Assembly (NCBI RefSeq): GCF_011516635.5
Contig: NZ_CP096255.1
Span: forward strand, 5,020,501-5,084,500
DNA: 64,000 nucleotides
Source: Bradyrhizobium barranii subsp. apii
Lineage (GTDB): Bacteria; Pseudomonadota; Alphaproteobacteria; Rhizobiales; Xanthobacteraceae
Reading direction: 5' to 3'
The translations under genes and the position numbers were made by a program. Of the stretch, positions 3,839 through 19,275 are shown one piece after another (position 1 is the first letter of the stretch; each line of letters opens with the position of its first letter). Under the pieces are notes generated by a model. The model was given only the letters and a program-made list of their open reading frames with translations, was not told the origin of the DNA and ran no database searches.

Positions 3839-4210
3839 CTAGCCGCCGCGAAGGGCGGCTTCGATGGTCTTGCCGAGCGCGTCGAGTTGGAACGGCTTCT
3901 GCAAGGCCGGCCGGTCGCGGTACTGCTCGGGCAGGCCGGAGGAGCCGTAGCCGGTGGCGAAGATGAACGGGCAGCCCTTCGCCCTGATGACATCGGCGAC
4001 CGGAGAGATGACCTTGCCGTTGACGTTGACGTCGAGGATGGCGATGTCGAACTCGGTCGCCTGGGCGAGCCGCAGGGCCTCGGTGATATCGCCGGCCTCG
4101 GCAGCCACCTTGTAGCCGAGCTCTTCGAGCATATCCGCGACCATCATCCTGATCATCACCTCGTCCTCGACGAGGAATACAGAGCGGCCCGAAGGTCCGG
4201 TCGCGGTCAT
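3839..4210 (-). CDS. Single-domain response regulator (CheY-like receiver)
   Basis: This 123-residue stand-alone receiver domain has the acidic pair in 'FLVEDEVMIRMM', the phospho-acceptor Asp in 'FDIAILDVNVNG', a Thr in 'FIFATGYG' and the conserved Lys in 'LQKPF'. There is no output domain, so it probably relays phosphate or acts by protein-protein contact. No sensor kinase is nearby. The ATG at 4210 is preferred because AAGGA lies about 10 bases upstream; an in-frame start at 4231 would add 7 residues. It is convergent with surE (3-bp gap) and divergent from pcm. Confidence 0.88.
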   Translation of the reverse strand: MTATGPSGRSVFLVEDEVMIRMMVADMLEELGYKVAAEAGDITEALRLAQATEFDIAILDVNVNGKVISPVADVIRAKGCPFIFATGYGSSGLPEQYRDRPALQKPFQLDALGKTIEAALRGG

Positions 4211-4447
4211 AGTCGTTGAGTCCTTGCCCATTTGCGGAAAACGTTCGCAGATAACGCGAATCGACGCAATGCGCGTTTCGGCGAGCGGGCACCCGAAAAT
4301 GGTCTTTGCAGCCAACCCGTTGCAAGCCGATTTATGGTCCAATACCGCGCCCGAACGGCTATCATGGGTTCCTGGGTAGGAACAGGATTCCTGCCCCGGG
4401 TCTTAACGAGACACGTGGCCCCGGACCCGACGAGACGATAAGCAGCG

Positions 4448-5098
4448 ATGACCTCCGATCAGCACCCGCCGGAAAAGATGATGTTTCAGCTCTCGCTGAG
4501 GCGCCGGGGCATCAGCGATCAGGCGGTGCTGCGGACCATGGAGGAGGTGCCGCGCGATCTGTTCGTCGAGGAGACCGATCGCGACGCCGCCTATCGTGAC
4601 AGCGCGCTGCCGATCGCCTGCGGGCAGACCATCAGCCAGCCCTTCGTCGTCGCCTACATGACCGAGCAACTCCAGCTCCAGAAGAAGCACCGCGTGCTCG
4701 AGATCGGCGCAGGCTCAGGCTATCAGGCCGCCGTGCTGTCGCGGCTCGCAGGCCAGGTGCTGACCGTCGAGCGCTACCGCAAGCTCGCGGAGGCGGCACG
4801 CGCCCGGCTCGAAAAGCTAAACTGTCACAATGTCGAGGTGATGCTCGGCGACGGCCTCAACCTGCCGGCCAATATCGGCCCGTTCGACCGCATCATCGTG
4901 ACCGCCGCGATGGAGCAGCTTCCGGAGAACCTGGTCGAGCGGCTGGAGGTCGGCGGCATCCTGATCGCACCCATCGGCCCGCACCATGGTGTGCAGACGC
5001 TGGTCCGCTTCAGCCGGACCGAAGCCGGGATCGAACGCAAGGAACTCGTCGAGGTCCGCTTCGTGCCGGCGCTGCCCGGGGTGGCGCGGGAGCTGTAG
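4448..5098 (+). CDS. pcm: Protein-L-isoaspartate O-methyltransferase
   Basis: This 216-residue enzyme uses S-adenosylmethionine to methylate isoaspartyl residues and so initiates repair of aged proteins. The SAM-binding motif I is '[18 protein letters not shown]', and the upstream '[16 protein letters not shown]' is the signature of the Pcm family. Length is normal. It stands between a divergent response regulator and the NlpD-like gene, which keeps the surE-pcm-nlpD neighbourhood seen across proteobacteria. Confidence 0.95.
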
Positions 5099-5207
5099 AT
5101 TTCCGGATCGGCTGTGCCGCCAACATCTTATTGGGAGGGTTAAGCCGTTATTTACTCGCGACGTGTTTACTTAAAAGACCAGTTCTGTTGCGTACGAGTG
5201 AGTAACC

Positions 5208-6593
5208 ATGTCTGTAGTCGCCGAGTTGCTTTACTCGCGCCGCGTGCCGCAGGTTGCGGTCTTGGCGCTGATCTCGTTCAGCTTCGCAGGGTGCAGCGCC
5301 GACATGCAGTCGCGGCTGTCCCAGTCGAATTTCTCCAATCCTTTCGCGTCTGAGCAGACCGGCTCGGTGCAGCAGGCACCGCCGCCGCAGCGTGAGCTGC
5401 CGCAATATTCGCGGCCGCAGACGCAGCCCGGTTATTATCAGTCGCAGCCCTTGCCGCCGCCGGCGGTCTCCGCGCCGCAATCCTATCCGGTTGCGGCGGG
5501 TGGCGGGGTGTCCGGCGGCGGTCGCGGCGTCAGCTCCTACGCGCCCCCGGCACAGCCGCATCTTGAGACCACGGCCACCGTGCCGCCGCGCTCGGTCGCG
5601 GCCGCCCAGCCGCCCGGCGGCACCAAGATCATCGTCGGCACCAGCGACACGCTCGACGTGCTCGCCAAGCGCTATCGCGTCACGCCGCAGGCGATCCTCG
5701 CCGCCAACGGCTACAAGGGCCCGCGCGCGCTCTCGCCCGGCCAGCAACTGATCATCCCGCATCCGGCCACCACAGCCGCTGCGCCGGCACCGGCGATGGT
5801 TCCTGTCGCGGCGGCTCCCGCGATGGCGCCTGCTGCGAAGCCTGTTGCAGCCGTCGCCGCGCCGCCGAGCACGCACTTCGTCAACCACGGCGACACGCTC
5901 GCCAGCATTGCCCGCAAGAACCACATCTCGTCGGCTGAGCTTGCCCGTGCCAACGGTCTCGCTCCGTCGGCCAAGCTCAAGCTCGGCACCAGGCTGACCG
6001 TGCCGGGCGCCAAGACCGCCGCCGTCGCGGCGCCGGTTGCTGCGGCTCCTGTCGCGGGGACGCTGCAGCCCGTTGCGGTTGCTCCCGCACCCGCCACCAA
6101 GATGGCCGCTGTCGCCGCACCCGTGCAAAGCGCGCGTCTGGCCCAGGCCACGGCCAATGTCGAAGAGAAGGCCGCGGAGGCTCCGGCGAAAGCTGCGGAG
6201 ACCACGAGCGCGCTGCCGACCTTCCGCTGGCCGGTGCGCGGCAAGGTGGTCACGAGCTACGGCGCCAAGACCAATGGCAAGTCCAATGACGGCATCAATC
6301 TCGCGGTGCCCGAGGGTACGCCGGTCAAGGCGGCAGAAGACGGCGTCGTCGCCTATTCGGGCAACGAGCTCAAAGGTTACGGCAATCTGGTCCTGGTTCG
6401 GCACTCCAACGGCTACGTCACCGCATATGCCCATGCGAGTGAGCTGATGGTGAAGCGCGGCGATACCATCAAGCGCGGTCAGGTCATTGCCAAGTCGGGT
6501 CAATCCGGGGAGGTGGCGTCGCCGCAGCTCCACTTCGAGATCCGTAAGGGATCGAGTCCGGTTGACCCGCTTCAATTCCTGAACGGGGCGTGA
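5208..6593 (+). CDS. nlpD: NlpD-like lipoprotein, LysM plus degenerate LytM (M23) domain
   Basis: The 461-residue protein has an N-terminal hydrophobic segment ending in a possible lipobox (FAGC), a Pro/Gln-rich linker, two LysM-type peptidoglycan-binding repeats (around residues 140-185 and 225-265), an Ala-rich linker and a C-terminal LytM/M23 domain (about 340-460). The usual zinc ligands look altered: the first motif reads 'SNDGINLAV' and the last 'SPQLHFEIRKG' lacks the first His of HxH. This suggests a non-catalytic activator of cell-wall amidases rather than a peptidase. The frame on the opposite strand is a shadow. Confidence 0.88.
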   Translation: MSVVAELLYSRRVPQVAVLALISFSFAGCSADMQSRLSQSNFSNPFASEQTGSVQQAPPPQRELPQYSRPQTQPGYYQSQPLPPPAVSAPQSYPVAAGGGVSGGGRGVSSYAPPAQPHLETTATVPPRSVAAAQPPGGTKIIVGTSDTLDVLAKRYRVTPQAILAANGYKGPRALSPGQQLIIPHPATTAAAPAPAMVPVAAAPAMAPAAKPVAAVAAPPSTHFVNHGDTLASIARKNHISSAELARANGLAPSAKLKLGTRLTVPGAKTAAVAAPVAAAPVAGTLQPVAVAPAPATKMAAVAAPVQSARLAQATANVEEKAAEAPAKAAETTSALPTFRWPVRGKVVTSYGAKTNGKSNDGINLAVPEGTPVKAAEDGVVAYSGNELKGYGNLVLVRHSNGYVTAYAHASELMVKRGDTIKRGQVIAKSGQSGEVASPQLHFEIRKGSSPVDPLQFLNGA

Positions 6594-6637
6594 GGCGCGG
6601 GCCCGCAGAGTAGGGCACGCAATCACCACGAGTATGC

Positions 6638-6697
6638 TGTCATCGCCCGCCTTGTGCGCATTGCGCACTGGTGCGGGCGATCCAGTATTCCAGAGGC
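6638..6697. repeat. Intergenic palindromic repeat, copy 2
   Basis: The stretch between the NlpD-like gene and the sulfatase cassette carries a second, oppositely oriented copy of the repeat at 896-999. Bases 6643-6650 pair with 6673-6680, enclosing a second small palindrome. The remaining roughly 210 bp up to 6909 show no gene I can support. Confidence 0.7.
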
Positions 6698-6909
6698 GGC
6701 GGTTGCCAAGCCGAGAAGCTGCCTCGAACCGTGGCGTACTGAGGCCTTTGTGTCCGGACAATCAATTTTCGAAAAACAACCCCATGCAAAGTAGCCGATG
6801 GCTGCCGGTGAAATGTCCTAATGTCCTGAAGCTGCTTCGGTTTCGATGGCGCAGCGGACATGGCAGGCCGGACCCGGCAACATCGCGAATAACCCGACCG
6901 GGACACCCT

Positions 6910-6923
6910 TTGATTTAGATCAA
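6910..6923 (+). promoter_or_regulatory. FNR/FixK-type box upstream of the sulfatase cassette
   Basis: The 14-mer TTGATTTAGATCAA is a perfect dyad TTGAT-N4-ATCAA, matching the FNR/FixK2 consensus. It ends 67 bp before the FGE start. If it is centred near -41, as in class II CRP/FNR promoters, transcription would start near 6957, leaving a 30-35 nt leader. This predicts low-oxygen induction of the operon. The site is seen; the regulation is inferred. Confidence 0.75.
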
Positions 6924-6989
6924 CCTGGAAGCCTCGCGTTCCGTGTCCGTAGCAGCGCAGGCCAATGACGCACGGGTCCGGAGTTCGGC

Positions 6990-7985
6990 ATGAAGCTGGC
7001 TGATACGAAATCGCCGCCTGATTCCGGACAATCGTACCAGCATCCAACAGGTGAGGGGATGCTGTTCGTGCCGGGTGGCACGTTTCGCATGGGTTCGGAT
7101 CGGCACTATCCGGAAGAAGCGCCGGTCCACCGTGTCACCGTGGATGCGTTCTGGATGGATTGCCATCCAGTGACCAACCGGCAATTCAAGGCGTTCGCGA
7201 AGGCTACCGGCCACGTCACCGTTGCCGAGATCGCGCCCGATCCAAAGGACTATCCGGGAATACTCCCGCACATGGTCTATGCGGGCTCGCTGATGTTCTC
7301 TCCGCCCGCGCATCCGGTCAGTCTCCGGGACTTCAGCCAGTGGTGGACCTTCGCCAAAGGTGCGAACTGGCGGCATCCCTACGGGCCGGGCAGCGACATC
7401 CGTGGGCTGGACGATCATCCCGTCGTGCATGTGGCCTTCAGCGATGCGCTCGCCTACGCGAAATGGGCCGGCAAGGATTTGCCAACCGAAGCGGAATGGG
7501 AGTTCGGGGCGCGCGGCGGACTGGACGGCGCCGAGTTCGCATGGGGAGATGAATTTGCGCCCGGGGGCCGTCACATGGCCAACACCTGGCAGGGCGAATT
7601 TCCACGCCAGAACACCAGGGACGACGGATACGAACGGACATCGCCGGTCACCGCATTTCCGCCGAACGGTTACGGGCTGCACGATATGATCGGCAACGTC
7701 TGGGAATGGACATCCGACTGGTACTCGCCTCGGCATGAGGCTGACGCTGCAAAAGCCTGCTGCATTCCAGAGAACCCGCGCGGCGGCCGCGAGGCCGATA
7801 GCTACGACTCCAGAACGACCAACGTCAAGATTCCACGCAAGGTCATCAAAGGCGGCTCGCATTTGTGCGCGCCGAACTACTGCCGACGCTACCGGCCGGC
7901 TGCGCGGCATGCGGAGCCGATCGACACATCCACGAGCCACCTTGGATTTCGGTGCATCAGGCGAGGTGTCTCTATCGCATCATAA
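6990..7985 (+). CDS. Formylglycine-generating enzyme family protein (SUMF1/FGE-type)
   Basis: This 331-residue FGE-sulfatase-fold protein probably oxidises the active-site Cys of sulfatases to C-alpha-formylglycine. It starts at the beta-rich 'VPGGTFRMGS' motif and ends in 'GGSHLCAPNYCRRYRPAARH', where Cys293 and Cys298 match the two copper-binding cysteines of true FGEs; many non-FGE relatives lack them. No signal peptide is visible, so it should act in the cytoplasm before export. GGAG lies 6 bases before the ATG. Three Cys-type sulfatases follow directly, the first 15 bp downstream, which strongly supports the assignment. Confidence 0.92.
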   Translation: MKLADTKSPPDSGQSYQHPTGEGMLFVPGGTFRMGSDRHYPEEAPVHRVTVDAFWMDCHPVTNRQFKAFAKATGHVTVAEIAPDPKDYPGILPHMVYAGSLMFSPPAHPVSLRDFSQWWTFAKGANWRHPYGPGSDIRGLDDHPVVHVAFSDALAYAKWAGKDLPTEAEWEFGARGGLDGAEFAWGDEFAPGGRHMANTWQGEFPRQNTRDDGYERTSPVTAFPPNGYGLHDMIGNVWEWTSDWYSPRHEADAAKACCIPENPRGGREADSYDSRTTNVKIPRKVIKGGSHLCAPNYCRRYRPAARHAEPIDTSTSHLGFRCIRRGVSIAS

Positions 7986-8000
7986 TGGGAGAGCGAGGCC

Positions 8001-9782
8001 ATGTTGAATTGCATATTCAATGACAAGCCACCCTTTGCCGCAATTCCACCGTTCAAGACGTCCAGTTGCCACAAGAGGTCCTGCGCCTCGCTGCTTGGCG
8101 CGACGATATTGATGTCGCTGTCCGGCGTAGCCAGCACGCCGGCGACCGCACAGCCGGCACAGAAACCCAATATCCTCTTCATCATGGGTGACGACATCGG
8201 CCTCTACCAACCGAGCATCTACCATCGCGGCCTGATGGTCGGCGAGACGCCCAACATCGATCGCATCGGCAACGAAGGCGCGATTTTCACGCATTACTAT
8301 GCCGAGCAGAGCTGCACCGCCGGTCGCAACGCCTTCTTCACCGGCATGCATCCGCTGCGCACCGGCATGATTCCTCCGCAACTTCCAGGCAGCCCGTCCT
8401 ATCTGCGGCCCGGCACCCCGGCGCTCGCCAAGTTCCTGCTCGATCTCGGCTACAACACCGGCGAATTCGGCAAGAACCATCTCGGCGATCACACCGACGC
8501 ACTGCCGACCGCGCACGGCTTCCAGGAATTCTGGGGCTACCTGTATCACCTCGATGCGATGCAGGGCGTGAGCTTCCCGGACATCAACAAGTCCCCCACC
8601 CAGCAGACGGTTGCCCCGCCATGCAAGAATACGCCGATCCCCGGCATCCCGGAGGTACCGGGCGCGGTCGATCCGAAAACGTCGGTTTGCCTGACGCCTC
8701 CGCGCAACGTCCTGTCGTGCAAGTCCGATGGTACATCCAGGACTCAGCAGTGCATCGACCAGGGCCCGCTAACGCTCGAGCGGTCGAAGGGTGTCGACGA
8801 GGAAATCTCGGCCAAGGTCATCGACTTCATCGATCGCAACGATCCGAAGACGACGGGCAAGCCTTTCTTCGTCTGGTACAACCCTGCGCGCATGCACATC
8901 ACAACCGTGCTGAATGACAAGTACGCGGCCATGGTCGGCGAGCCCGGCGGCAAGGACTGGGGCCTCAACGAGGCCGGCATGAAGCAGATGGACGACAACA
9001 TCGGCTATGTGCTCAAGAAGCTCCAGGACATGGGGCAGCTCGACAACACGATCGTCGTGTTCACCACCGACAACGGCGCCGAGACCATCACCTTTCCGGA
9101 CGGCGGCACCACTCCGTTCAAGGGCGGCAAGCTGAGCACCTGGGAAGGCGGCATGCGCGCTCCGGCGCTCGTTCGCTGGCCGGGGGTCATCAAGCCCGGC
9201 ACCATCAAGAACGACATCTTCGCGTCACTCGACTGGCTGCCCACATTTGTCAACATCGCCGGTGGTGCAAAGGGAGACGCGCTGAAGAAGCGCATCGAGG
9301 CCGGCCAATATCCCGGCATCGTGAAGACGACGCTCGATGGCGTCGATCAGGCCGAATACCTTTCCGGGCGTTCGGAAACGTCGGCGCGGGATACCTTCTT
9401 CTACTATTCGGGCAAGGATCCGTCGGCGGTGCGCTACAAGAACTGGAAGATCTACTTCACGATGGTGTCCGACAACCCGGCGGGCTTTATTGCCGGAGCG
9501 CTTCCCTATCACTGGGCCCAGGTCGTCAACATCAAGCGAGACCCGTTCGAGACTTCGATCGGTTCACAATACAAGACGCTCATGGGCCAGGGCGGCACAA
9601 TCGGCTCCCCTTCGACAGCCTACATCTACGATTGGAACATGCTGCCCATCGGCCAGGCGCTCTGGCTGAAGGAACTCGAGAGCTATATTGCGTACCCGCC
9701 GCTGCAGGACCCGGCGAGCTACAATCTCGATCAGGTGATGCAACAGATCAAGCAGGCCAAGACTGCCGGTCGCAGCGACTAG
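8001..9782 (+). CDS. Sulfatase, Cys-type, Sec-type signal
   Basis: This 593-residue alkaline-phosphatase-superfamily sulfatase has the metal-binding 'ILFIMGDDIG' motif (Asp64/Asp65) and the modification site CTAGR (Cys105, Arg109), a C-x-A-x-R formylglycine signature. A further conserved block reads 'FTTDNGAE'. The N-terminus has a hydrophobic stretch (about residues 29-50) ending TATAQP and no RR motif, so export is probably through Sec. It carries a Cys-containing insertion around residues 200-255 that the next two sulfatases lack. It is 15 bp behind the FGE gene and presumably co-transcribed. The substrate is unknown. Confidence 0.93.
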   Translation: MLNCIFNDKPPFAAIPPFKTSSCHKRSCASLLGATILMSLSGVASTPATAQPAQKPNILFIMGDDIGLYQPSIYHRGLMVGETPNIDRIGNEGAIFTHYYAEQSCTAGRNAFFTGMHPLRTGMIPPQLPGSPSYLRPGTPALAKFLLDLGYNTGEFGKNHLGDHTDALPTAHGFQEFWGYLYHLDAMQGVSFPDINKSPTQQTVAPPCKNTPIPGIPEVPGAVDPKTSVCLTPPRNVLSCKSDGTSRTQQCIDQGPLTLERSKGVDEEISAKVIDFIDRNDPKTTGKPFFVWYNPARMHITTVLNDKYAAMVGEPGGKDWGLNEAGMKQMDDNIGYVLKKLQDMGQLDNTIVVFTTDNGAETITFPDGGTTPFKGGKLSTWEGGMRAPALVRWPGVIKPGTIKNDIFASLDWLPTFVNIAGGAKGDALKKRIEAGQYPGIVKTTLDGVDQAEYLSGRSETSARDTFFYYSGKDPSAVRYKNWKIYFTMVSDNPAGFIAGALPYHWAQVVNIKRDPFETSIGSQYKTLMGQGGTIGSPSTAYIYDWNMLPIGQALWLKELESYIAYPPLQDPASYNLDQVMQQIKQAKTAGRSD

Positions 9783-9810
9783 CTGCGAGCCACGAGCGTG
9801 ATCCGACGAA

Positions 9811-9837
9811 GCGGGCGCCTCACGACGGGGCGCCCGC
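9811..9837 (+). terminator. Intercistronic GC hairpin 1
   Basis: A perfect 9-bp stem (9811-9819 with 9829-9837) lies 29 bp after the first sulfatase and is not followed by a T-run. A similar hairpin with the same GCGGGCGC core follows each of the next two sulfatases. It could act as an mRNA processing or stabilising element rather than a terminator. Confidence 0.55.
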
Positions 9838-9962
9838 CAACGGAATAGCAAGCAAGTGATCGAGGAGGCCGCGCCCGACCGGTCGGCACCTCCAGAAGCC
9901 ATGTCCGCTTCCGATGCATCAAGCGAACAGAGCCAATTGCATAACAACAGGAGGAGCACGTC

Positions 9963-11669
9963 ATGAGTAGCAAGCTTCCGCCAGAAGAATCGCACGACGT
10001 TGCGCCGCAATCGGGCGGCGGAATGAAACGCCGCGATCTGCTGCTGAGCGGCAGTTCGCTTGTGGCCGCTTCGGCGCTCTCGGCCGTCGGGCTGACAACG
10101 CCGGCACAAGCGCAGCAGCCGGCAGCAGCGCCCGCAGCGGCCGGCCAGCGGCCGAACATCGTCTTTATCATGGGTGACGACATCGGCTGGTTCAATATCG
10201 GCGCCTACCACCAGGGCATCATGGCAAGCCGGACACCGAACCTCGACAAGCTCGCCGCAGAAGGCATGCGCTTCACCGACTATTACGCCGAGGCGAGTTG
10301 CACGGCGGGCCGCGCCAATTTCATCACAGGCGAACTGCCAATCCGCACCGGGCTAACCACGGTCGGCCAGGCTGGCTCCCCGATCGGAATGCCGGCGCAG
10401 GCACCGACGATCGCGACCGCACTAAAATCCATGGGCTACACCACGGGGCAGTTCGGCAAGAACCACCTCGGCGACCTCAACGAATTCCTGCCGACCATGC
10501 ACGGCTTCGACGAGTTCTTCGGCTATCTGTACCACCTCGACGCGATGGAAGACCCGGCCCACCGCAACTACCCGCAAGCGCTACTGGCCACCGTCGGTCC
10601 GCGCAACATGGTTCATTCCTGGGCGACCGACGTCGACGATCCGACGGTGCAGACGCGCTGGGGCAAGATCGGCAAGCAAAAGATCGAGGACTCCGGACCG
10701 CTTTATCCAAAGCGGATGGAGACGGTGGATGACGAAATCCTGAAGATCACGTTCGACTTCATCGACAAGGCCAAGCGGGACAACAAGCCGTTCTTCGTCT
10801 GGCTCAACCCGACGCGCATGCACGTCGTCACGCACCTTTCGGAAAAATACGAGAACATGCGCAACTCCGAAAACGGCTGGTCGGTTTCCGAGGGCGGATT
10901 CGCCCAACTGGACGATATCGTCGGCGCCGTCATGAAGAAGCTCAAGGACGAGGGCTTCGACGACAACACGATCGTCGCGTTCACAACCGACAATGGCGCG
11001 GAGAACTTCACCTGGCCTGATGGCGGACAGACGCCATTTGCAGGCGGCAAGGGAACGGCCATGGAAGGCGGTTTCCGCGTGCCCTGCATGATCCGCTGGC
11101 CGGGCAAGGTGCCGGCGGGAAAGGTCGAGAACGGCATTATCTCCGGACTCGACTGGTTCCCGACCTTCGTCGCCGCAGCGGGCAATCCGAATATTGCCGA
11201 CGAGTTGAGGAAAGGAAAGCAACTCGCCGGCAAGACCTACAAGGTCTTCCTCGACGGATACAACCAGATGGATCTGATTACCGGAAAGGGCCCGTCTGCC
11301 CGCCACTCGGTCTTCTATTTCACCGAGGGCACACTGAGCGCGGTGCGTATCGACGACTTCAAGTATCGCTTCACCGATCAGCCAAGCGGCTGGTTGGGCG
11401 CCACGGTCAAGGTTGATTGGCCGATCCTCACCAATATCCGCCTTGATCCCTTCGAACGCACGAACATGCCCAACGGCGCGCAGGGGTCGTTGGCATTCTA
11501 TAACTGGTTTGTTTACGAGTTCTGGCGGTTCCAGTTCGTGCAGCAGGAGGTCGGCAAGCTCGCCCAGACGGCGATCGAGTTCCCGCCGATGCAGAAGGGG
11601 GCGAGCTTCAATCTGGAAGCGGTCAAGGAGCAGATCGAAAAGGCCATGCAGTCGCAGGCTGGCAAGTAG
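9963..11669 (+). CDS. Sulfatase, Cys-type, Tat-exported
   Basis: This 568-residue sulfatase has a twin-arginine signal: a ~20-residue polar leader, then 'MKRRDLLLSGSSLVAASALS' and an AQA-type cleavage site near residue 50. The metal motif is 'IVFIMGDDIGW' and the formylglycine site is CTAGR (Cys113, Arg117). Cytoplasmic modification by FGE followed by Tat export of the folded enzyme would be consistent. GGAGGAG precedes the ATG. It is a close tandem paralogue of the next gene, and even the upstream leader is duplicated. The substrate is unknown. Confidence 0.94.
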   Translation: MSSKLPPEESHDVAPQSGGGMKRRDLLLSGSSLVAASALSAVGLTTPAQAQQPAAAPAAAGQRPNIVFIMGDDIGWFNIGAYHQGIMASRTPNLDKLAAEGMRFTDYYAEASCTAGRANFITGELPIRTGLTTVGQAGSPIGMPAQAPTIATALKSMGYTTGQFGKNHLGDLNEFLPTMHGFDEFFGYLYHLDAMEDPAHRNYPQALLATVGPRNMVHSWATDVDDPTVQTRWGKIGKQKIEDSGPLYPKRMETVDDEILKITFDFIDKAKRDNKPFFVWLNPTRMHVVTHLSEKYENMRNSENGWSVSEGGFAQLDDIVGAVMKKLKDEGFDDNTIVAFTTDNGAENFTWPDGGQTPFAGGKGTAMEGGFRVPCMIRWPGKVPAGKVENGIISGLDWFPTFVAAAGNPNIADELRKGKQLAGKTYKVFLDGYNQMDLITGKGPSARHSVFYFTEGTLSAVRIDDFKYRFTDQPSGWLGATVKVDWPILTNIRLDPFERTNMPNGAQGSLAFYNWFVYEFWRFQFVQQEVGKLAQTAIEFPPMQKGASFNLEAVKEQIEKAMQSQAGK

Positions 11670-11687
11670 CAGATAAATATGAGGTGA

Positions 11688-11714
11688 GCGGGCGCTCCGC
11701 GTCGGAGCGCCCGC
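11688..11714 (+). terminator. Intercistronic GC hairpin 2
   Basis: A perfect 12-bp stem (11688-11699 with 11703-11714) with a 3-nt loop lies 18 bp after the second sulfatase. It shares its base with the hairpins at 9811 and 13550, while the upper stem differs by compensating changes. This suggests that the structure is conserved. There is no T-run. Confidence 0.6.
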
Positions 11715-11839
11715 CAACGGAATAGCGAGCAAGTGATCCAAGAGGCCGCGTCGGGCCGGTCACCACCTCCACAAGCCACGCCGGCTTCCGATGCGTCAAG
11801 CGAACAGAGCCAATTGCGTAACAACGGGAGGAGTACGTC

Positions 11840-13525
11840 ATGAGCAATAAGCTTCCACCTGGAGATTCCCACGACGCTACTCCACAATCGGGCGGCGGAA
11901 TGAAACGCCGCGATCTTTTGCTGAGCGGGAGTTCTCTTGTCGCCGCTTCGGCGCTCTCGGCTGTCGGGCTGACAACCGCGGTACAGGCGCAGCAGCCGGC
12001 ACCCGCGCCAGCCGGGCAGCGGCCGAACATCGTCGTCATCATGGGGGACGACATCGGCATGTGGAATATCGGCGCATATCACCGCGGCCTGATGGCCGGC
12101 CGGACGCCCAATCTCGACAAGCTCGCCGCCGAAGGCATGCTGTTCACCGATTACTATGCCGAGGCGAGCTGCACGGCAGGTCGCGCCAACTTCATCACCG
12201 GTGAATTGCCAATCCGCACCGGCATGACCACTGTCGGCCAGGCCGGCGCTGCCATCGGCATACCCGCGCAGGCCGTGACCATCGCCACGGCGTTGAAAGG
12301 AATGGGTTACGCCACCGGCCAGTTTGGCAAGAATCACCTTGGCGACAAGAATGAATTCTTGCCGACAGTGCACGGCTTCGACGAGTTCTTCGGTTACCTC
12401 TATCACCTCGACGCAATGGAAGACCCCGCGCACCCAAACTACCCGCAGGATCTGCTGAACGTCGTCGGTCCACGCAACATGCTTCATACCTATGCGACCA
12501 ACGACCCGCGTTGGGGCAAGGTTGGCAAGCAGAAGATCGAGGATGCTGGAACGCTCTATCCCAAGCGAATGGAGACCGTGGACGACGAAATCCGCGACCT
12601 GGCGATCAAGTTCATCGAGAAGGCCAAGGCCGACAACAAGCCGTTCTTCCTGTGGCTCAATCCAACCCGGATGCACATCGTCACGCATCTTTCACCAAAG
12701 TACGAGGCGACGCGCAACTCCAAGAACGGCTGGTCGATACATGAAGCCGGCATGGCGCAGCTCGATGACGACGTCGGCATGGTGATGCAGAAGCTCAAGG
12801 ATATGGGCGTGGACGACAACACCATCGTGGTCTTCACCACCGACAACGGCACCGAGGTCTTCACCTGGCCCGATGGCGGGCAGACGCCTTTCGCGCAGAG
12901 CAAAGGCACCGTCATGGAAGGTGGCTTCCGCGTGCCCTGCATGATCCGTTGGCCGGGCAAGGTGCCGGCCGGCAAGGTCGAGAACGGCATCATTTCCGGT
13001 CTGGACTGGTTTCCGACCTTGCTGGCGGCCGCCGGCAACCCGAACATTGCAGAGGAGCTGCAGAAGGGCAAACAGATCGGTGACACGACCTATAAGTGCT
13101 ATCTGGACGGCTATAACCAGATGGACATGATTACCGGCAAGGGGCCGTCGAACCGGCACGAAATCTTTTACTTCGGAGAGAGCGAACTCGGTGCCGTGCG
13201 CATCGACGACTTCAAGTATCGCTTCATCGACCAGCCAAAAGGCTGGCTCGGCGAAAAAACCAAGGTTGACGTGCCCTATTTGACCAATCTTCGCCTCGAT
13301 CCATTCGAGCGCACGGGCTGGCCCGATAACGGGAGTAAAGAAGGCGCGCAGCAATACTTCGACTGGTTCAAATACGAATTCTGGCGCTTTGTATTTGTTC
13401 AGCAGCAGGTGGAAAAGCTGGCGATGACGGCGATCGAGTTTCCGCCGATGCAAAAGGGCGCGAGTTTCAACCTCGATGCCGTGAAGGCGAAAATCGAGGC
13501 GGCCCGGGCGGCGGTGGGCAAGTAG
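11840..13525 (+). CDS. Sulfatase, Cys-type, Tat-exported (tandem paralogue)
   Basis: This 561-residue paralogue of the preceding gene has the same signal ('MKRRDLLLSGSSLVAASALS'), the metal motif 'IVVIMGDDIGM' and CTAGR (Cys111, Arg115). Similarity runs over the whole length, with differences clustered in loops (for example around residues 210-235) and near the C-terminus (about 475-515), which could reflect different substrates. GGGAGGAG precedes the ATG. The duplicated upstream leader shows that the copying unit included the intergenic region. Confidence 0.94.
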   Translation: MSNKLPPGDSHDATPQSGGGMKRRDLLLSGSSLVAASALSAVGLTTAVQAQQPAPAPAGQRPNIVVIMGDDIGMWNIGAYHRGLMAGRTPNLDKLAAEGMLFTDYYAEASCTAGRANFITGELPIRTGMTTVGQAGAAIGIPAQAVTIATALKGMGYATGQFGKNHLGDKNEFLPTVHGFDEFFGYLYHLDAMEDPAHPNYPQDLLNVVGPRNMLHTYATNDPRWGKVGKQKIEDAGTLYPKRMETVDDEIRDLAIKFIEKAKADNKPFFLWLNPTRMHIVTHLSPKYEATRNSKNGWSIHEAGMAQLDDDVGMVMQKLKDMGVDDNTIVVFTTDNGTEVFTWPDGGQTPFAQSKGTVMEGGFRVPCMIRWPGKVPAGKVENGIISGLDWFPTLLAAAGNPNIAEELQKGKQIGDTTYKCYLDGYNQMDMITGKGPSNRHEIFYFGESELGAVRIDDFKYRFIDQPKGWLGEKTKVDVPYLTNLRLDPFERTGWPDNGSKEGAQQYFDWFKYEFWRFVFVQQQVEKLAMTAIEFPPMQKGASFNLDAVKAKIEAARAAVGK

Positions 13526-13549
13526 CGCCTGGCATCGACTGGTTTCATG

Positions 13550-13578
13550 GCGGGCGCACCGAACTCCTGTGCGCCCGC
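13550..13578 (+). terminator. Intercistronic GC hairpin 3
   Basis: A perfect 10-bp stem (13550-13559 with 13569-13578) lies between the third sulfatase and the HAD gene, 23 bp before its start. It shares its GCGGGCGCA-like base with the hairpins at 9811 and 11688. Since the HAD gene follows so closely, an RNA-processing role is at least as likely as termination. Confidence 0.55.
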
Positions 13579-13601
13579 TTGGCAACGGAAAGGAGTCGAC
13601 C

Positions 13602-14636
13602 TTGAAACCGATCATCCGTTTTCCTGCTATCGATCGCCGCATCCTGCTCTCGTCACTGGCCGTCCTTCCCTTGCTCTCCGCCTCACTCCGCTCCACCTCC
13701 GCGCTGGCACAGGCACGCGATCCACTCCCGTCCTTGAACGAGGGGGCGACCAAGGCTTCGATCCTCGATTTCGTCGCGCGGGTCACGACGCAAGGCGGGC
13801 CTTTCTTCGTGCCGGTCGAGCAGCGCATCGCGACCTTCGACAATGACGGCACACTATGGGTCGAGCAGCCGATGTATGTGCAACTGGCCTTCGCCCTCGA
13901 CCGCGTGAAGGCCATGGCGCCAATGCATCCGGAATGGAAGACCAAGCAGCCGTTCGCGGCGGTGCTCGACAACGATCTGAAGGCGCTGGCGGCTTCCGGC
14001 GAAAAGGGATTGGTCGAGATCATCGCGGTAACTCATGCCGGCATGACGACGGCAGAGTTCGAGAAAATCGTGACCGACTGGCTCGCGACCGCGCGCGACC
14101 GTCGCTTCAAGCGCCCTTATACTGAGCTCGTCTATCAGCCGATGCTGGAACTGCTTGCCTACCTCAGGGCCAACGGCTTCAAGACCTTCATCGTGTCGGG
14201 TGGCGGCATCGAGTTCATGCGGCCCTGGACCGAGCGGATCTACGGGGTGCCGTCGGAACAGGTGGTCGGATCGTCGATCAAAACCCGATTTGAGATCAAG
14301 GACGGTGCGCCAACGCTCTTCCGGCTGCCCGACATCAATTTCATCGACGACAAGGCGGGCAAGCCGATCGGCATCAACGAGCACATTGGCCGGCGTCCGA
14401 TCGCCGCCTTCGGCAACTCCGACGGCGATCTCGAAATGCTGCAATGGACGACGCTCGGCGCCAGTGGCGCGCGGTTCGGCCTGATCGTCCACCATACCGA
14501 TGCGGAACGCGAATATGCCTATGACCGCGACTCGCATTTCGGGAAACTCGACGTCGCGCTCGACGCCGCGGCCGTCAACAAGTGGGCGGTCGTCGACATG
14601 AAAAAGGACTGGAAGCGCATCTTTGCCTTCGACTGA
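13602..14636 (+). CDS. Secreted HAD-family phosphatase
   Basis: This 344-residue protein has a signal peptide (hydrophobic stretch about residues 14-35, cleavage after ALAQA). The HAD motifs are 'FDNDGTLW' (nucleophile Asp), 'FIVSGGG' (motif II Ser) and 'GNSDGDLEM' (motif IV Asp pair). TTG at 13602 is the best start because GGAAAGGAG lies 6 bases upstream; the in-frame ATG at 13569 lies inside the intercistronic hairpin. It ends the sulfatase cassette and would act in the same extracytoplasmic space, perhaps removing phosphate where the others remove sulfate. The specificity is unknown. Confidence 0.88.
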   Translation: MKPIIRFPAIDRRILLSSLAVLPLLSASLRSTSALAQARDPLPSLNEGATKASILDFVARVTTQGGPFFVPVEQRIATFDNDGTLWVEQPMYVQLAFALDRVKAMAPMHPEWKTKQPFAAVLDNDLKALAASGEKGLVEIIAVTHAGMTTAEFEKIVTDWLATARDRRFKRPYTELVYQPMLELLAYLRANGFKTFIVSGGGIEFMRPWTERIYGVPSEQVVGSSIKTRFEIKDGAPTLFRLPDINFIDDKAGKPIGINEHIGRRPIAAFGNSDGDLEMLQWTTLGASGARFGLIVHHTDAEREYAYDRDSHFGKLDVALDAAAVNKWAVVDMKKDWKRIFAFD

Positions 14637-14644
14637 CATCCTCT

Positions 14645-14712
14645 AAGGACCCATACGTGCCATCTGGACGGCAATAGCCAGTGGACATGGTTACCGGCAA
14701 GAGGGACCCAAC
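14645..14712 (+). pseudogene. Sulfatase gene fragment (debris)
   Basis: About 65 bp directly behind the HAD gene align with positions ~13085-13148 of the third sulfatase, sharing the runs CATCTGGACGGC-like and TTACCGGCAA, with scattered substitutions and one deletion that shifts the frame. No start, stop or flanking sulfatase sequence remains. It looks like a relic of a further tandem copy or a recombination scar. Confidence 0.7.
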
Positions 14713-14903
14713 GCATTCCGGACTTGCACACCGACCATCTTTGTCGCCTGCGGCACCGCGTTCGAGGCGCGGACGTCCGCTGTTAACGCAAGGAGGACAT
14801 CAGCCGGCGTTCCCGAGATCTGCTGGGCGAAGGTCGGACCAATTGTGAGAGCCAGAACGGAGGTCGACCATACCAATGCGCGCATGGTGGGAGTGATGTT
14901 CAT
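14691..14903 (-). pseudogene. Truncated arylsulfatase-like N-terminus
   Basis: A 70-codon frame starts 'MNITPTMRALVWSTSVLALT' with a Sec signal and 'FAQQISGTP', which resembles the mature start of large bacterial arylsulfatases (from memory), after a GGGAG ribosome-binding site. Similarity fades after ~33 residues and the frame ends in the sulfatase debris at 14645-14712. I read it as the stump of a divergent sulfatase gene. It could instead be a small exported peptide. Confidence 0.4.
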
Positions 14904-15060
14904 GGTCAGACTCCCTCGAATTGACTATTCGAAGCTAAACCTGCGAACAGCATGCGCCACACGCTTCAGGATGGCCGCATCGCCATCGACCACAATCACG
15001 AAGCGCCATCATGTCCGTGTAGCCCCGGTACGGGCGTGCGCCAAGAGTCTTGGCCGACCG

Positions 15061-15074
15061 TTGATCCAGATCAA
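15061..15074 (+). promoter_or_regulatory. FNR/FixK-type box upstream of the ParB-like gene
   Basis: The 14-mer TTGATCCAGATCAA is a perfect TTGAT-N4-ATCAA dyad, 187 bp before the ParB-like start. TTATAA near 15110 could belong to its promoter. It lies in the otherwise gene-free stretch 14904-15261, where I see nothing else. It may drive the ParB-like/aquaporin/marC unit or, on the other strand, the vanished sulfatase. Confidence 0.65.
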
Positions 15075-15261
15075 TGGAATAGTCCACCGTGAGCACAACG
15101 AAGGGTCGTTGTTATAAAGGCGGGCTTTGCCGACGGGCGCTGAGAATGTCCGGTGATCGGGACGGACCGGACGCGGCTGGCCTCGGGGTCGGTTGCTGAC
15201 GAGGCGACGACGTCTTCTAAAAGCGAACATTTCCGGACTAGTGATCAAAGAAGTCTGCACG

Positions 15262-15882
15262 ATGTCGGACCGTGAACCCATTCTCAAGCCCGTTGCGATC
15301 GCAGACCTGCGCCCGACCCAGATGACGGTCGGCATTCGGGAGGTCAAGGAGAAGCGCAAGCGCTGGCGCGACGAGAGCAAAGAGAAAGGAGCCGAGTTCT
15401 TGGGCAAGCACATGATCCCGGTCGTGCTTGGCCCGAAGGACCGCCACTACGTCATCGATCATCACCACCTGGCGCGTGCGCTCCATGAAGAAGGGGTCGA
15501 AGAGGTATTGGTTACCGTGGTGAAAAACCTCAGGACGCTGGAGCCCGATTCGTTCTGGTTCGTCTTGGACAATCAAAGCTGGATGCATTCGTACGACGAC
15601 GAGGGCCGTCTGCGCCCTTACAAGGATTTGCCGAAGACCGTGGCCGGGCTTGTTGACGATCCGTTCCGCTCGTTGGCGGGCGAACTGCGGCGCGCCGGCG
15701 GGTACGCCAAGGACACGACGCCGTTCAGCGAGTTCTTGTGGGCGGATTTTTTGCGTCGCCGGGTCAAGCGCAAAACCGTAGAGACCCACTTCGAGGCCGC
15801 TCTCGAGCAAGCCCTGGAATTGTCTAAAAACGAGGAGGCGAGCTACCTGCCCGGCTGGTGTGGTCCCGTCTTGGAGGATTGA
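15262..15882 (+). CDS. ParB-like (ParBc_2-type) protein
   Basis: This 206-residue cytoplasmic protein of the ParB/sulfiredoxin-fold group has the conserved 'VIDHHHLARAL' motif (Asp66-His69). It is rich in charged residues and has no helix-turn-helix like that of chromosomal ParB, so the old label 'chromosome partitioning' is probably wrong. I chose the ATG at 15262 over an upstream frame extension because the family starts with a similar short lead. It is followed in the same direction by an aquaporin (115 bp) and marC. The function of the family is not known to me. Confidence 0.75.
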   Translation: MSDREPILKPVAIADLRPTQMTVGIREVKEKRKRWRDESKEKGAEFLGKHMIPVVLGPKDRHYVIDHHHLARALHEEGVEEVLVTVVKNLRTLEPDSFWFVLDNQSWMHSYDDEGRLRPYKDLPKTVAGLVDDPFRSLAGELRRAGGYAKDTTPFSEFLWADFLRRRVKRKTVETHFEAALEQALELSKNEEASYLPGWCGPVLED

Positions 15883-15997
15883 AGGCATGCCTATCCCGCT
15901 CGAAAAATCCGCAAGCGCGCCGAAGACCTGAGGAGCCGTGCTGGCCCGGTGCGAGAGGCTAACGGACAGCGGCATCGACTAGAGGAAAGAGCAGCTC

Positions 15998-16807
15998 ATG
16001 GCGCAAACAGAGGCCGACAGAACGCTGAGCCATCTGGATCACGAGCTTGTCGCGTCGCTAAACGACTTCCACGATCCGAACCAAGAGTGGCGCCGCCTCT
16101 TCTCGGAGCTGCTCGGAACGTTCTTCCTCGTCCTCGTGGCCGCCGGTGGCGGCATGATGGGGCAGGCCTTTCCCGGCACGATCAGCCGTGCCGCTGCGGT
16201 CGTCGCACCCGGTCTGATGGTGATGGCGATCATCCTCTTCATGGGCAAAGTGTCCGGCGCTCATCTCAATCCCGCGGTCAGTATCGCGTTCTCGGTGCGT
16301 GGCGACTTCCCGTGGCGTCGCGTACCGGGATATATCGTCGTGCAGTTGATCGGGGCGACGCTCGCGGCACTGTTCCTGCACGCCGTGATCAACGTGTCGG
16401 CCAGCTACGGGTCGAACTATCCCGCGTCGGGATACTCCGCGTCCGATGCGTTCCTGATGGAGGCCGTGCTGACCCTCGGTCTCGTCAGCGTCATTCTCGG
16501 CACGGCGTCAGGCGCTCAGAACATCGGGATCATCGGCGCGATCGGCGTCGGCGCGTACATTGCGCTCGCCGGGCTGTGGGGGAGCCCTATCTCGGGAGCG
16601 TCGATGAACCCAGCGCGCACGTTCGGCCCGAACTTGATCGCGACCGACTTCACGAGCTACTGGGTGTATGTCGCAGGTCCACTCGTGGGTGCAGTTCTCG
16701 CAGTGGGTGCAGCATGGGTGCTCCGCGGTGCCGGCGGCGGCCGCGCGGGCTCAGGTGCGGCACAGGGGAGCCTTTTCACCGAAGTCGAGCACCCGGAGAA
16801 AGGGTGA
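15998..16807 (+). CDS. MIP-family channel (aquaporin)
   Basis: This 269-residue membrane channel of the major intrinsic protein family has six hydrophobic segments and both pore loops, with NPA at residues 91-93 ('SGAHLNPAVS') and 204-206 ('SGASMNPARTFGPN'). The Arg207 of the selectivity filter is present, as in water-selective aquaporins. It has an unusually long polar N-terminus (about 35 residues) and a Gly/Ala-rich tail. It lies between the ParB-like gene and marC (12 bp gap), presumably in one operon. Confidence 0.92.
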   Translation: MAQTEADRTLSHLDHELVASLNDFHDPNQEWRRLFSELLGTFFLVLVAAGGGMMGQAFPGTISRAAAVVAPGLMVMAIILFMGKVSGAHLNPAVSIAFSVRGDFPWRRVPGYIVVQLIGATLAALFLHAVINVSASYGSNYPASGYSASDAFLMEAVLTLGLVSVILGTASGAQNIGIIGAIGVGAYIALAGLWGSPISGASMNPARTFGPNLIATDFTSYWVYVAGPLVGAVLAVGAAWVLRGAGGGRAGSGAAQGSLFTEVEHPEKG

Positions 16808-17110
16808 GGCGCAGGCATAATGGGTCATGAACTCTCGCTGTTCGTGGGTACGTTCGCGACCTTGCTCGCGATAATAAATCCGTTCGAGGTCCTGCCGGTC
16901 TATCTGAAGATGCTGGAAGGCAAGGACGCCGCCACACATCGCAAGGTGGCATGGAAAGCTTGCCTCTATGCGCTGCTTCTATCTCTCTTTTTCTTGATCT
17001 TCGGAACGCTGATCCTACGCTTGTTCGGCGTGCCGCTGAGCATGGTCCGCATCGTCGGCGGGATCATCCGTAAGCGTAGCTCTGCGGCCCTTTTGAATGG
17101 CGCTTGACGC

Positions 17111-17713
17111 CTATTTTGTTCGCGTGGCGCGTCGCCGCGGCTTCCTTGTGTCGGACAACGCGTTGACGGCGGCTTCGAGTGCCTTCCGGTCGACGACGTT
17201 GGGATCGAACCGCTCCGGGCCCCAGAGGCGCATGTGTCCGTGCTCGGGATGGGCGGGGTCGCTGATGGCGGCGAGGTATTCGGCATAGCCTGGCGCACCG
17301 CCGACGTCTTCCGGAGGACAACGACCGGCGGCCTCGAGCAGGAAGGGAAGCCCCTCCGTCGTGGTGTTCTCGAACCATTTTTCGAGCTTGATCACATGGT
17401 CCCAGCTGTCGCCGAAGTCATAGAGATAGTGGATCGTCTTGGCGCCGGTCTCGCGAACGATATCGCACAGCCGCGCTTTGCGGGCATCCATGGGCTGGTG
17501 ACCGTAATCATTGTCGGGGTCGGGAATCCCCCAATGTGCCTCACCAGCAAAGAACTCGAAGAGGTGACTGTTCGTCCAGCCGAATGCCTCCTGAAGCGTC
17601 AGATGCAGCCGATCAAGGCGCAGGGTGACGGGTACGACAAGGCGACGCATCACCTCCGGCTTCACATCCTTGAGGGTCACCTTGATCCGGACCGCGGTCG
17701 TGTTCAGGCTCAT
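17111..17713 (-). CDS. pRiA4b ORF-3-like passenger protein of the IS66 element
   Basis: This 200-residue protein of the plasmid pRiA4b ORF-3 family (PRiA4_ORF3) has typical features such as 'HLTLQEAFGWTNSHLFEF', 'YLYDFGDSWDHVIKLEKW' and 'PPEDVGGAPGY'. Its ATG overlaps the tnpC stop by 4 bp (ATGA), so it is translationally coupled to the transposase. It lies inside the inverted repeats and therefore moves with the element. The family's biochemical role is unknown, and it is not required for transposition in ordinary IS66 elements. Confidence 0.88.
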   Translation of the reverse strand: MSLNTTAVRIKVTLKDVKPEVMRRLVVPVTLRLDRLHLTLQEAFGWTNSHLFEFFAGEAHWGIPDPDNDYGHQPMDARKARLCDIVRETGAKTIHYLYDFGDSWDHVIKLEKWFENTTTEGLPFLLEAAGRCPPEDVGGAPGYAEYLAAISDPAHPEHGHMRLWGPERFDPNVVDRKALEAAVNALSDTRKPRRRATRTK

Positions 17714-19275
17714 GCCGCCAGCCTCGGATCGCGTGTATGCATCGTATAGGTCGACGCCCAGGGAAGCAGTTCGTCCAGTCGCGCTGCAGGCCAACCATTG
17801 ACGAGCTTGGCGAGAACGTCAGCGAGCCAGTGCTCGGCACTGACGCCATTGAGCTTACAGGTCTCAATGAGCGAAGCCAGCAATGCCCAATTCCCGGCGC
17901 CTTCGTCGCAACCGGCAAAAAGAGAGTTCTTGGCGTTGAGCTTGATCGGTCGCATCGCACGCTCGACAGCATTCGTGTCCATTTCGATGCGCCCATCATC
18001 AAGATAGAGCGTCAGGCCGTCCCAATGACGTAGTGCATAGCGCAAAGCCTTCGCCGTGTCGCTCTTCTGCGCAAGGTGATCGAGCTTGGCCTCAAACCAC
18101 TGCTTCAAGGCTGCAACCAGAGGCCGGGTATGCGCTTGTCGGCCAGCACGGCGCTCGTCCGCAGATCGGCCGCGGAGGGCCTTCTCGACCGCGTAAAGCT
18201 GGGCGATGCGCTCAAGAGCCTCGCGGGCAACCGGAGCTGGCGCAGGCGCAGCCTCCCGCTCGATCTTCACAAACTGGCGCCGCAGATGCGACCAGCAGAA
18301 GGCGAGCGTCCCGGACAGGGCGTCCGCACGCGTCTCTCGGGTCATGGTCTTGTAAGCCTGATAGCCGTCGCAGTGGATGATGCCGCGATAGCCCTCCAGC
18401 AGCCGCAAGCCATGAACGGCGCCGCGGCCCGGTGCATAGGCATAGACTACCCCAGGCGGATCAGGTCCGGCCCAAGGCCTGTCATCGCGTGACAGCGCCC
18501 AGAAGTAGCCGGTTTTTGTTCTGCCGCGCCCCGGATCCAGCACCGGCGCCGGGGTCTCATCGACACAGAGCTTCGAGGAGGCGAGCAGAAGCTGGCGCAG
18601 ACGATGCCACACGGGCTTCAATTCCTGGGCGGCATAGCCGACCCAGAAGGCGAGCGTGGAACGATCCAGCGCTATTCCGTGCGTCGCCAGCATCTGCGCC
18701 TGGCGGTAAAGCGGCAAATGCCAGTGATACTTGGCATCGATCACATGCGCGACCAGCCGCTCGGTGGGCAATCCTCCCCTGATCAATCGCTCGGGAGCCG
18801 CGTGCTGCAGGACGACGCCATGACAGGCGCGGCAGGCCAGCTTGGGACGGCGGGTGATGATGACGCGATACTGCGCCGGAACGACGTCGAGCCTCTGGCT
18901 CTCATCCTGACCAATCTCGAAGAGGTTGCCCTTACAAGACGGGCAGCAGCTCTCGGCCGGCATCATAGTCTCGATGACGCGCGGCAAATGCTCCGGCAGC
19001 TGACCACGGTTGGCTCTGCGCGCGGCAGCTCTCTTCTCGCCTGTTTTGGGATTGGCACGATTCTCGGCGGCTTCGAGAGCCGCAACGGCCTGATCGATAT
19101 CCTCCAGAACAAGCTGCAGCTGATCAGCGTCCAGCTTTTCCGAGGACCGACCGAACTGCGCATCTTTCGCAAGCTTGAGCAACCGCTCGAGCCGGGCGCA
19201 GCGATCCAGCAGAGCCGCGGCAAAGGCACGCAACTCGGCTGGATCGCTCGGTAGCTCATCAGGCAAATCACTCAT
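17710..19275 (-). CDS. tnpC: IS66 transposase TnpC
   Basis: This 521-residue DDE transposase is the main enzyme of IS66. It has an N-terminal coiled-coil-like stretch, a zinc-finger pair ('CCPSC' and 'CRACHG'), a catalytic core including 'IIHCDGYQAYK' and the C-terminal 'ERAMRPIKLNAKNSLFAGC' block. The frame is intact and full length, so the element may be active. Confidence 0.96.
   Translation of the reverse strand: MSDLPDELPSDPAELRAFAAALLDRCARLERLLKLAKDAQFGRSSEKLDADQLQLVLEDIDQAVAALEAAENRANPKTGEKRAAARRANRGQLPEHLPRVIETMMPAESCCPSCKGNLFEIGQDESQRLDVVPAQYRVIITRRPKLACRACHGVVLQHAAPERLIRGGLPTERLVAHVIDAKYHWHLPLYRQAQMLATHGIALDRSTLAFWVGYAAQELKPVWHRLRQLLLASSKLCVDETPAPVLDPGRGRTKTGYFWALSRDDRPWAGPDPPGVVYAYAPGRGAVHGLRLLEGYRGIIHCDGYQAYKTMTRETRADALSGTLAFCWSHLRRQFVKIEREAAPAPAPVAREALERIAQLYAVEKALRGRSADERRAGRQAHTRPLVAALKQWFEAKLDHLAQKSDTAKALRYALRHWDGLTLYLDDGRIEMDTNAVERAMRPIKLNAKNSLFAGCDEGAGNWALLASLIETCKLNGVSAEHWLADVLAKLVNGWPAARLDELLPWASTYTMHTRDPRLAA

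Follow-up and report, generated by a model that had tools for sequence, protein, structure and literature searches.

A FixK-type box before an FGE-sulfatase-phosphatase cassette of Bradyrhizobium suggests a dispersed low-oxygen sulfatase regulon

The literature commonly treats sulfatases as enzymes of sulfur starvation or carbohydrate use, and formylglycine-generating enzyme (FGE) as their oxygen-dependent maturase; why, then, should both stand behind a DNA box of the type read by a low-oxygen regulator? The question is raised by a locus of Bradyrhizobium barranii subsp. apii, located in a stretch of 64,000 nucleotides (the window; contig NZ_CP096255.1, G000:C1:5020501-5084500) of a 10.58 Mb genome, for which the best-matching named loci are those of Bradyrhizobium. 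Five genes (window 6990-14636) encode an FGE, three sulfatases (SulA, SulB and SulC) and a phosphatase of the HAD superfamily, and are preceded by a perfect FixK/FNR-type palindrome (Table 1). Taken together, the gene content, the catalytic motifs, the box with its conservation and enrichment, and the presence of FixK2 make it reasonably probable that this cassette belongs to a dispersed FixK-type, most likely FixK2-dependent, low-oxygen regulon of secreted sulfatases and their oxygen-requiring maturase, with regulator binding, induction at low oxygen, the substrate and the benefit to the cell as predicted parts of the proposal.

A sequence-only reading of the same DNA had described five genes in one direction, an FGE with both active-site cysteines, three sulfatases with a CTAGR motif, a secreted HAD phosphatase and a perfect TTGAT-N4-ATCAA box in front of them, and each of these features was recovered, all five genes lying on the plus strand; the signal-like twin-arginine (RR) N-terminus of the phosphatase had gone unmentioned. 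Family assignments were made by Pfam and NCBIfam scans, which were concordant. The PF03781 match of the FGE covers the entire domain (positions 3-255 of 255), and its active-site motif GGSHLCAPNYCRRYRPAAR provides C293 and C298 (C-x4-C), which align with the GGS..C....C segment of the solved FGE 1y1e, presumably the human enzyme. The full-length domain and the cysteine pair indicate an FGE of the aerobic SUMF1 type, with predicted catalytic activity. Type I (S1) sulfatases are characterized by C-x-[PA]-x-R, containing the formylglycine cysteine, together with metal- and sulfate-binding residues. This signature is present in all three sulfatases, each of which contains CTAGR as well as GDDIG, GKNH, RMH, TTDNG and a GGK/SKG lysine, and SulB was also aligned to 7aj0. 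Since the catalytic motifs are complete, nothing suggests that any of the three is a dead enzyme. SulB and SulC are tandem duplicates (78.5 % amino acid identity), while SulA is 42 % and 38 % identical to SulB and SulC, respectively. Assignment to the choline-sulfatase family BetC (TIGR03417) was rejected, the cassette sulfatases reaching 68.6 to 90.9 bits where the cut-off is 433.45. The gaps between the genes are 15, 180, 170 and 43 bp, and the five genes are probably co-transcribed as one operon. The numbers of predicted terminators (5 versus 8.0 in shuffles) and sigma-70 promoters (2 versus 2.3) were uninformative, and no Rfam match at gathering score was found in window 6500-15400 that would indicate an RNA element in the leader.

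Table 1. Positions of the cassette genes and of the two perfect boxes in the window
Feature	Position	Strand	Details
FixK/FNR-type box TTGATTTAGATCAA, perfect palindrome	6910..6923		end 66 bp, start 80 bp before FGE start codon
FGE, aerobic SUMF1 type, no signal sequence seen	6990..7985	+	PF03781 285 bits; 1y1e E 6e-78; C293/C298
SulA, predicted secreted S1-type sulfatase	8001..9782	+	PF00884 143 bits; best solved relative 7aj0 E 4e-51; CTAGR Cys105
SulB, S1-type sulfatase, RR signal	9963..11669	+	PF00884 178 bits; 7aj0 E 2e-55; CTAGR Cys113
SulC, S1-type sulfatase, RR signal	11840..13525	+	PF00884 185 bits; 7aj0 E 8e-57; CTAGR Cys111
HAD-superfamily phosphatase, signal-like RR N-terminus	13569..14636	+	PF12710 51 bits; DxD D91/D93, K265, D285/D287
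Second perfect box TTGATCCAGATCAA	15061..15074		before separate ParBc_2 + aquaporin unit

Shuffled versions of the window contained a mean of 0.00 matches to the perfect box. Genome-wide, 48 perfect TTGAT-N4-ATCAA boxes were found and none of the reversed control pattern; the looser pattern TTGAY-N4-RTCAA, which was not used further, gave 100 sites versus 10 for its control. Chance origin of the box was ruled out by the shuffles and the genome-wide control, together with the enrichment at sulfatases and the conservation in relatives described below. The neighbours of the boxes were read by eye from adjoining open reading frames (ORFs) and selected ones were then tested; perfect boxes precede fixN (ccoN, 712.6 bits), hemA (705.6 bits) and napE (80.1 bits), all of which are named as FixK2 targets in an excerpt of PMC10454721. 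The FixK2 box consensus has been given as TTG(A/C)-N6-(T/G)CAA (excerpts of PMC9104804 and PMC5582078), at positions -37 to -287 in part of a table of PMC9104804, and the cassette box fits this consensus at a distance usual for the known FixK2 targets listed there. In B. diazoefficiens, napEDABC has a published FixK2 box with the letters of TTGATCCAGATCAA (excerpt of PMC5582078), which are also those of the box before napE in the present genome and of the second box in the window. The genome also encodes a FixK2 ortholog, which matches the solved FixK2 structure 4i2o with an E value of 7e-141.

The box might nevertheless be read by another CRP/FNR regulator, for example a FnrL/FixK1-like protein with N-terminal cysteines, in which case the genes may respond to anoxia, nitric oxide or redox state rather than to FixLJ-FixK2-mediated microoxia. 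Candidates are numerous, the genome having 34 matches to HTH_Crp_2 at E <= 0.001 (27 of them above the cut-off), and one FnrL/FixK-like protein (L223; cysteines at 15, 18 and 26) shares the recognition segment E-T-V-S-R with FixK2. Against such a regulator speaks the finding that the published FixK2 targets fixN, hemA and napE carry the same motif, the last with its published letters, although this sharing is also compatible with use of the motif by several regulators. We regard control by another member of the family as a tentative explanation with a minority chance, and FixK2 as the preferred candidate. Perfect boxes were also noted before a DUF1254/DUF1214 protein, a DUF3300 protein and a calcineurin-like phosphoesterase (L101, L094 and L113).

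The box was found to be enriched at sulfatase genes of the genome. The 17 PF00884 matches correspond to eight strong units, two stand-alone weak matches (38.7 and 28.1 bits) having been dropped and weak pieces of split genes kept. Five of the eight have a perfect upstream box, namely the cassette and the units at 6275416, 5440015, 451925 and 7730; the unit at 6275416 comprises an 869-amino-acid sulfatase followed by a second sulfatase split into two frames. A box is lacking at a CxPSR gene at 772 kb, an 854-amino-acid gene at 6.05 Mb and a second cassette at 5.351-5.357 Mb. The binomial probability of five boxed units among eight is 2e-12 at the box density of the genome and 3e-9 at one box per approximately 5500 units, the latter number being an assumption. 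The boxed sulfatase genes at G000:C1:451925-453870 and 7730-9600 are each split into two frames and are apparently decaying copies.

The association extends to relatives. HAD matches were found in 59 of the 146 genomes of the genus, and 39 HAD regions from other genomes were fetched and mapped along with the second copy of the present genome, further divergent places not being included. As close cassettes we defined those of 23 genomes, the present one included, whose best full-length HAD match reaches 80 % identity or more; the split or partial matches of G024 (90 %) and G133 (84 %) fall outside this set. A perfect box was located no more than 500 bp upstream in 17 of the 23, and 19 permuted half-sites gave none, except for one that scored 2. 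The distance to the first gene is 59-67 bp in ten cassettes, which lie behind pcm- and lysM-like genes (identified by eye), and 162-208 bp in other contexts. In one boxed close cassette (L074) the gene order is box, HAD, FGE and sulfatase, and the distance was measured to HAD as the first gene. Alignment of the ten orthologous promoters showed both half-sites to be invariant and the DNA immediately upstream to have diverged; conservation is also fairly high from the box to the start codon.

A comparable enrichment was observed when sulfatases rather than cassettes were taken as the starting point. PF00884 was searched in 11 genomes (the present one included), and the upstream DNA of 50 strong hits from nine other genomes was analysed, matches of 61.2 bits or less having been dropped (lowest kept, 115.8), so that G003 drops out. 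A box occurs within 4 kb of 12 of the 50 hits (186371 bases, some upstream stretches being shorter than 4 kb), as compared with 0.85 expected and 0 to 2 for permuted half-sites; within 1 kb the count is four, against 0 to 1. The 12 boxed hits fall in five genomes (G001, G002, G004, G007 and G010). Two of them (L301 and L305) represent one cassette, and four (L282, L292, L301 and L305) were already among the 23 close cassettes, which leaves eight new ones. In 10 of the 12, the interval from box to sulfatase contains an FGE match, which is continuous in seven (six distinct loci) and in pieces in three. The sequence-only reading had named missing linkage between box and genes in relatives as one result that would speak against it, and such linkage was found both in the close cassettes and, far above expectation, at the sulfatases of these nine genomes. 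More than one boxed sulfatase locus is present in each of G002, G004, G007 and G010, so the module and its box seem to have spread jointly. At three loci the FGE is fragmented (short pieces at L286 and L287, three pieces at L312), a hint that a decayed FGE left behind a sulfatase that kept its box.

That a FixK-type switch, and not sulfur starvation, sets the sulfatases and their own maturase, and that the box-FGE-sulfatase module was duplicated and spread to several places per genome, may be put at even chances. The opposite view is that the box is non-functional and that the five genes form an ordinary operon for sulfur scavenging or aryl-sulfate catabolism, responding to sulfur supply or aromatic compounds. 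Sulfur supply is the classical control of arylsulfatases (PMC4053727 has a study of the P. aeruginosa ats cluster among its references), the arylsulfatase genes RL1911 and RL1918 of R. leguminosarum 3841 appear in a salicylic acid response table (excerpt of PMC4136779), and cassettes of other genera lack the box. Against a non-functional box speak the perfect palindrome, which in 17 of the 23 close cassettes precedes the first gene by 59 to 208 bp and does so in more than one context (permuted patterns score 0 to 2), and the enrichment at other sulfatase units, and this explanation is considered improbable.

The enzyme set itself is widespread beyond the genus. A scan of named genomes gave at least 576 HAD loci, and the best 80, from rhizobia, planctomycetes, desulfobacteria, verrucomicrobia and others, were inspected (strain USDA110 was not among them); a sulfatase lies within the fetched flank of 60 and an FGE within that of 28, these being raw counts that include short contigs and are set against no matched background. 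In 18 of the 28 loci with FGE the FGE precedes HAD, and a perfect box was found in two, both among the seven from Bradyrhizobium, so that the box looks like a Bradyrhizobium addition. Clustering of the ORFs of the best 80 loci revealed recurrent families besides HAD, sulfatases, FGE and their reverse frames. A protein combining c-type cytochrome and TPR domains is found in 13 of the 80 (e.g. L178:6012-8312 and L322:11842-14115) and is a recurring partner of HAD-sulfatase pairs. Two outer-membrane-like families without a Pfam match occur in 11 and 10 loci, respectively, while HlyD-like proteins and DUF3300 proteins were each found in six. The cytochrome-TPR protein stands directly behind HAD on R. 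leguminosarum plasmid pRLN2 and was not among the genes seen in the present cassette. Related arylsulfatases are carried by rhizobial plasmids such as the conjugative B. japonicum pS11L-1 (NZ_CP126014.1), where an FGE lies in front; the pS11L-1 enzyme is 93 % identical to SulC over residues 63-546, and its stretch contains no perfect box.

Such plasmid-borne relatives, together with the microoxic state of nodules, invite the alternative that the enzymes act within the low-oxygen nodule and desulfate a plant signal or a Nod factor. Nodule sulfatase activity has been measured in Sinorhizobium and was higher for the arylsulfatase-rich S. medicae (excerpt of PMC4053727). On the other hand, a strong NodA is present in 16 of the 23 cassette genomes versus 69 of the 123 others (Fisher p 0.26; NodA matches were found in 94 of 146 genomes, nine with E above 1e-6 being counted as without NodA), 13 of the 16 cassette genomes with a strong NodA and 4 of the 7 without one have retained the box, and HAD-sulfatase pairs also occur in planctomycetes, desulfobacteria and others. 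Use of the cassette as a symbiosis marker was rejected on the same lack of association with NodA, and a symbiotic function of this kind seems improbable.

Under the preferred FixK2-dependent reading, falling oxygen would activate FixL/FixJ and thereby FixK2, a cascade that has been published for B. diazoefficiens, and FixK2 acting on the box would drive expression of the FGE, the sulfatases and the HAD phosphatase. The cytoplasmic FGE, with Cu(I) on its cysteine pair, would then use oxygen to generate formylglycine from the CTAGR cysteine in each sulfatase prior to export. FGE is known to use oxygen and copper (excerpts of PMC12123546 and PMC4505483), and the design therefore fits microoxia and not anoxia; with the maturase gene behind a low-oxygen switch, the sulfatases may continue to be matured while the co-substrate is scarce. 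Outside the cell, sulfate and phosphate would be freed from organic esters and then taken up, and scavenging of sulfur (and phosphorus) from esters would be the most economical purpose. The sequence-only reading had suggested an external polymer or lipid as the target, and nothing was found that points to either. If the proposal is true, microoxia would be a signal that unlocks organic sulfate (and phosphate) stores, a higher FGE level compensating for the scarcity of oxygen, and a low-oxygen regulator before both enzyme types would make the release of organic sulfur in nodules and wet soil depend on how much oxygen is supplied. It also raises the question of how an oxygen-consuming maturase works at the oxygen levels at which FixK2 acts, and the list of boxes offers targets open to direct testing in a genus that is well studied in the laboratory.

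Export routes were judged by eye from the N-termini. SulB and SulC both begin with the Tat-like MKRRDLLL and are predicted to be exported by the twin-arginine (Tat) pathway. SulA has HKRSC, and 17 SulA N-termini (own included) comprise 12 with KR, one with RR and four with neither, which is suggestive of Sec or weak Tat export. Of the earlier proposal of one Sec-type and two RR signals, the latter were thus retained, with the route of SulA left between the two. The associated idea that Tat best fits maturation before export suits SulB and SulC and fails to cover SulA, the kind of sulfatase present in 22 of the 23 close cassettes, which is no clear Tat substrate.

Several observations weigh against a FixK2-controlled sulfatase regulon. 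A low-oxygen trigger is counter-intuitive for an FGE that needs oxygen. The perfect box is absent from 6 of the 23 close cassettes and from all 13 divergent Bradyrhizobium cassettes tested (a set that excludes L075, L077 and L092, with no FGE in the stretch, L076, with FGE after HAD, and L087, with a short upstream region). It is likewise absent from 16 of the 18 FGE-before-HAD named loci, five of the seven from Bradyrhizobium among them, and from all four rhizobial plasmid loci, and four of the nine genomes searched for sulfatases (G005, G006, G008 and G009; 9 hits) have no boxed sulfatase. In the present genome, the second FGE-sulfatase-sulfatase-HAD cassette (G000:C1:5351882-5357557, minus strand) has no perfect upstream box even though its FGE has the same active-site motif as that of the first. 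The boxed units are partly non-independent through duplication with the promoter, the broken gene at 452 kb resembling SulA, and two boxed sulfatases are each broken into two frames, as is the second sulfatase gene in a third boxed unit. Finally, the word 'sulfatase' is absent from the main texts (without supplements) of B. diazoefficiens papers on FixK2, NnrR and microoxia and of papers on transcriptional modules and on RegR.

In comparison with known systems, the FixLJ-FixK2 microoxic regulon of B. diazoefficiens shares box type, promoter position, a FixK2 ortholog and the fixN, hemA and nap targets with the present genome, and differs in that the main texts searched mention no sulfatase. 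No literature linking FixK to sulfatases was found in a search that did not extend to subscription papers and supplements, and such a link may sit in a published table. In an excerpt of one paper, choline sulfatase and fixK appear in separate sections, and part of a comparison table in a microoxia paper (PMC6515984) contains blr1482 (sulfate ABC transporter binding protein) and bsr6521 (aryl-sulfate sulfotransferase) of B. diazoefficiens. The full-length family match and the cysteine pair are common to SUMF1-type FGE-sulfatase systems, in contrast to which a dedicated FGE here directly precedes three sulfatase genes behind a low-oxygen box.

The cassette does not fit a sulfonate or sulfate-ester uptake cluster, since ABC transporter genes were seen neither among ORFs of at least 120 amino acids in window 4000-18500 (by eye) nor in the family scans of seven proteins. 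The sequence-only reading had likewise found no transporter and called the benefit to the cell unexplained; freed sulfate can, however, enter by transporters encoded elsewhere, and the lack is therefore no puzzle in itself. The arylsulfatase clusters III and IV of Sinorhizobium medicae resemble the cassette as legume-symbiont arylsulfatases with a proposed use of ester sulfur, and are linked to ssu/tau-type transporters, unlike the present cassette with its FGE and HAD (excerpt of PMC4053727).

The HAD phosphatase carries the RR motif DRRILLSS at its N-terminus and is probably exported by Tat. The HAD-phosphatase motif set is complete, and D91, D93, K265, D285 and D287 are invariant across 40 aligned sequences. 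An AlphaFold2 model (mean pLDDT 85.3) matched 4ovy, a HAD hydrolase of Planctomyces limnophilus, with Z 41.0 (root-mean-square deviation (rmsd) 1.7, 304 residues, 62 % identity), which places both in the same family; the description of 4ovy names no substrate. The fold is shared with the phosphorylcholine phosphatase PchP (4as2; Z 20.1, rmsd 3.7, 259 residues), but the identity is only 18 %, and the substrate of PchP is therefore not transferable. Further matches were 4gxt (Z 18.8) and 3fvv (Z 17.1), the next row being at 13.5. The structural comparison supports a phosphatase fold and not any substrate. A HAD hydrolase, blr3815, which may or may not belong to the family of the cassette enzyme, is listed in a published FixK2 table.

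The second perfect box of the window, which the sequence-only reading had missed, precedes a gene with a ParBc_2 domain (15262-15882) and an aquaporin-family gene (15998-16807), and the same combination of box, ParBc_2 and aquaporin genes lies behind the cassette at locus L118. Further downstream, an ORF at window 17710-19275 reads by eye as an IS66-type transposase. The second cassette of the genome adjoins genes labelled by eye as HlyD-like and DUF1254-like.

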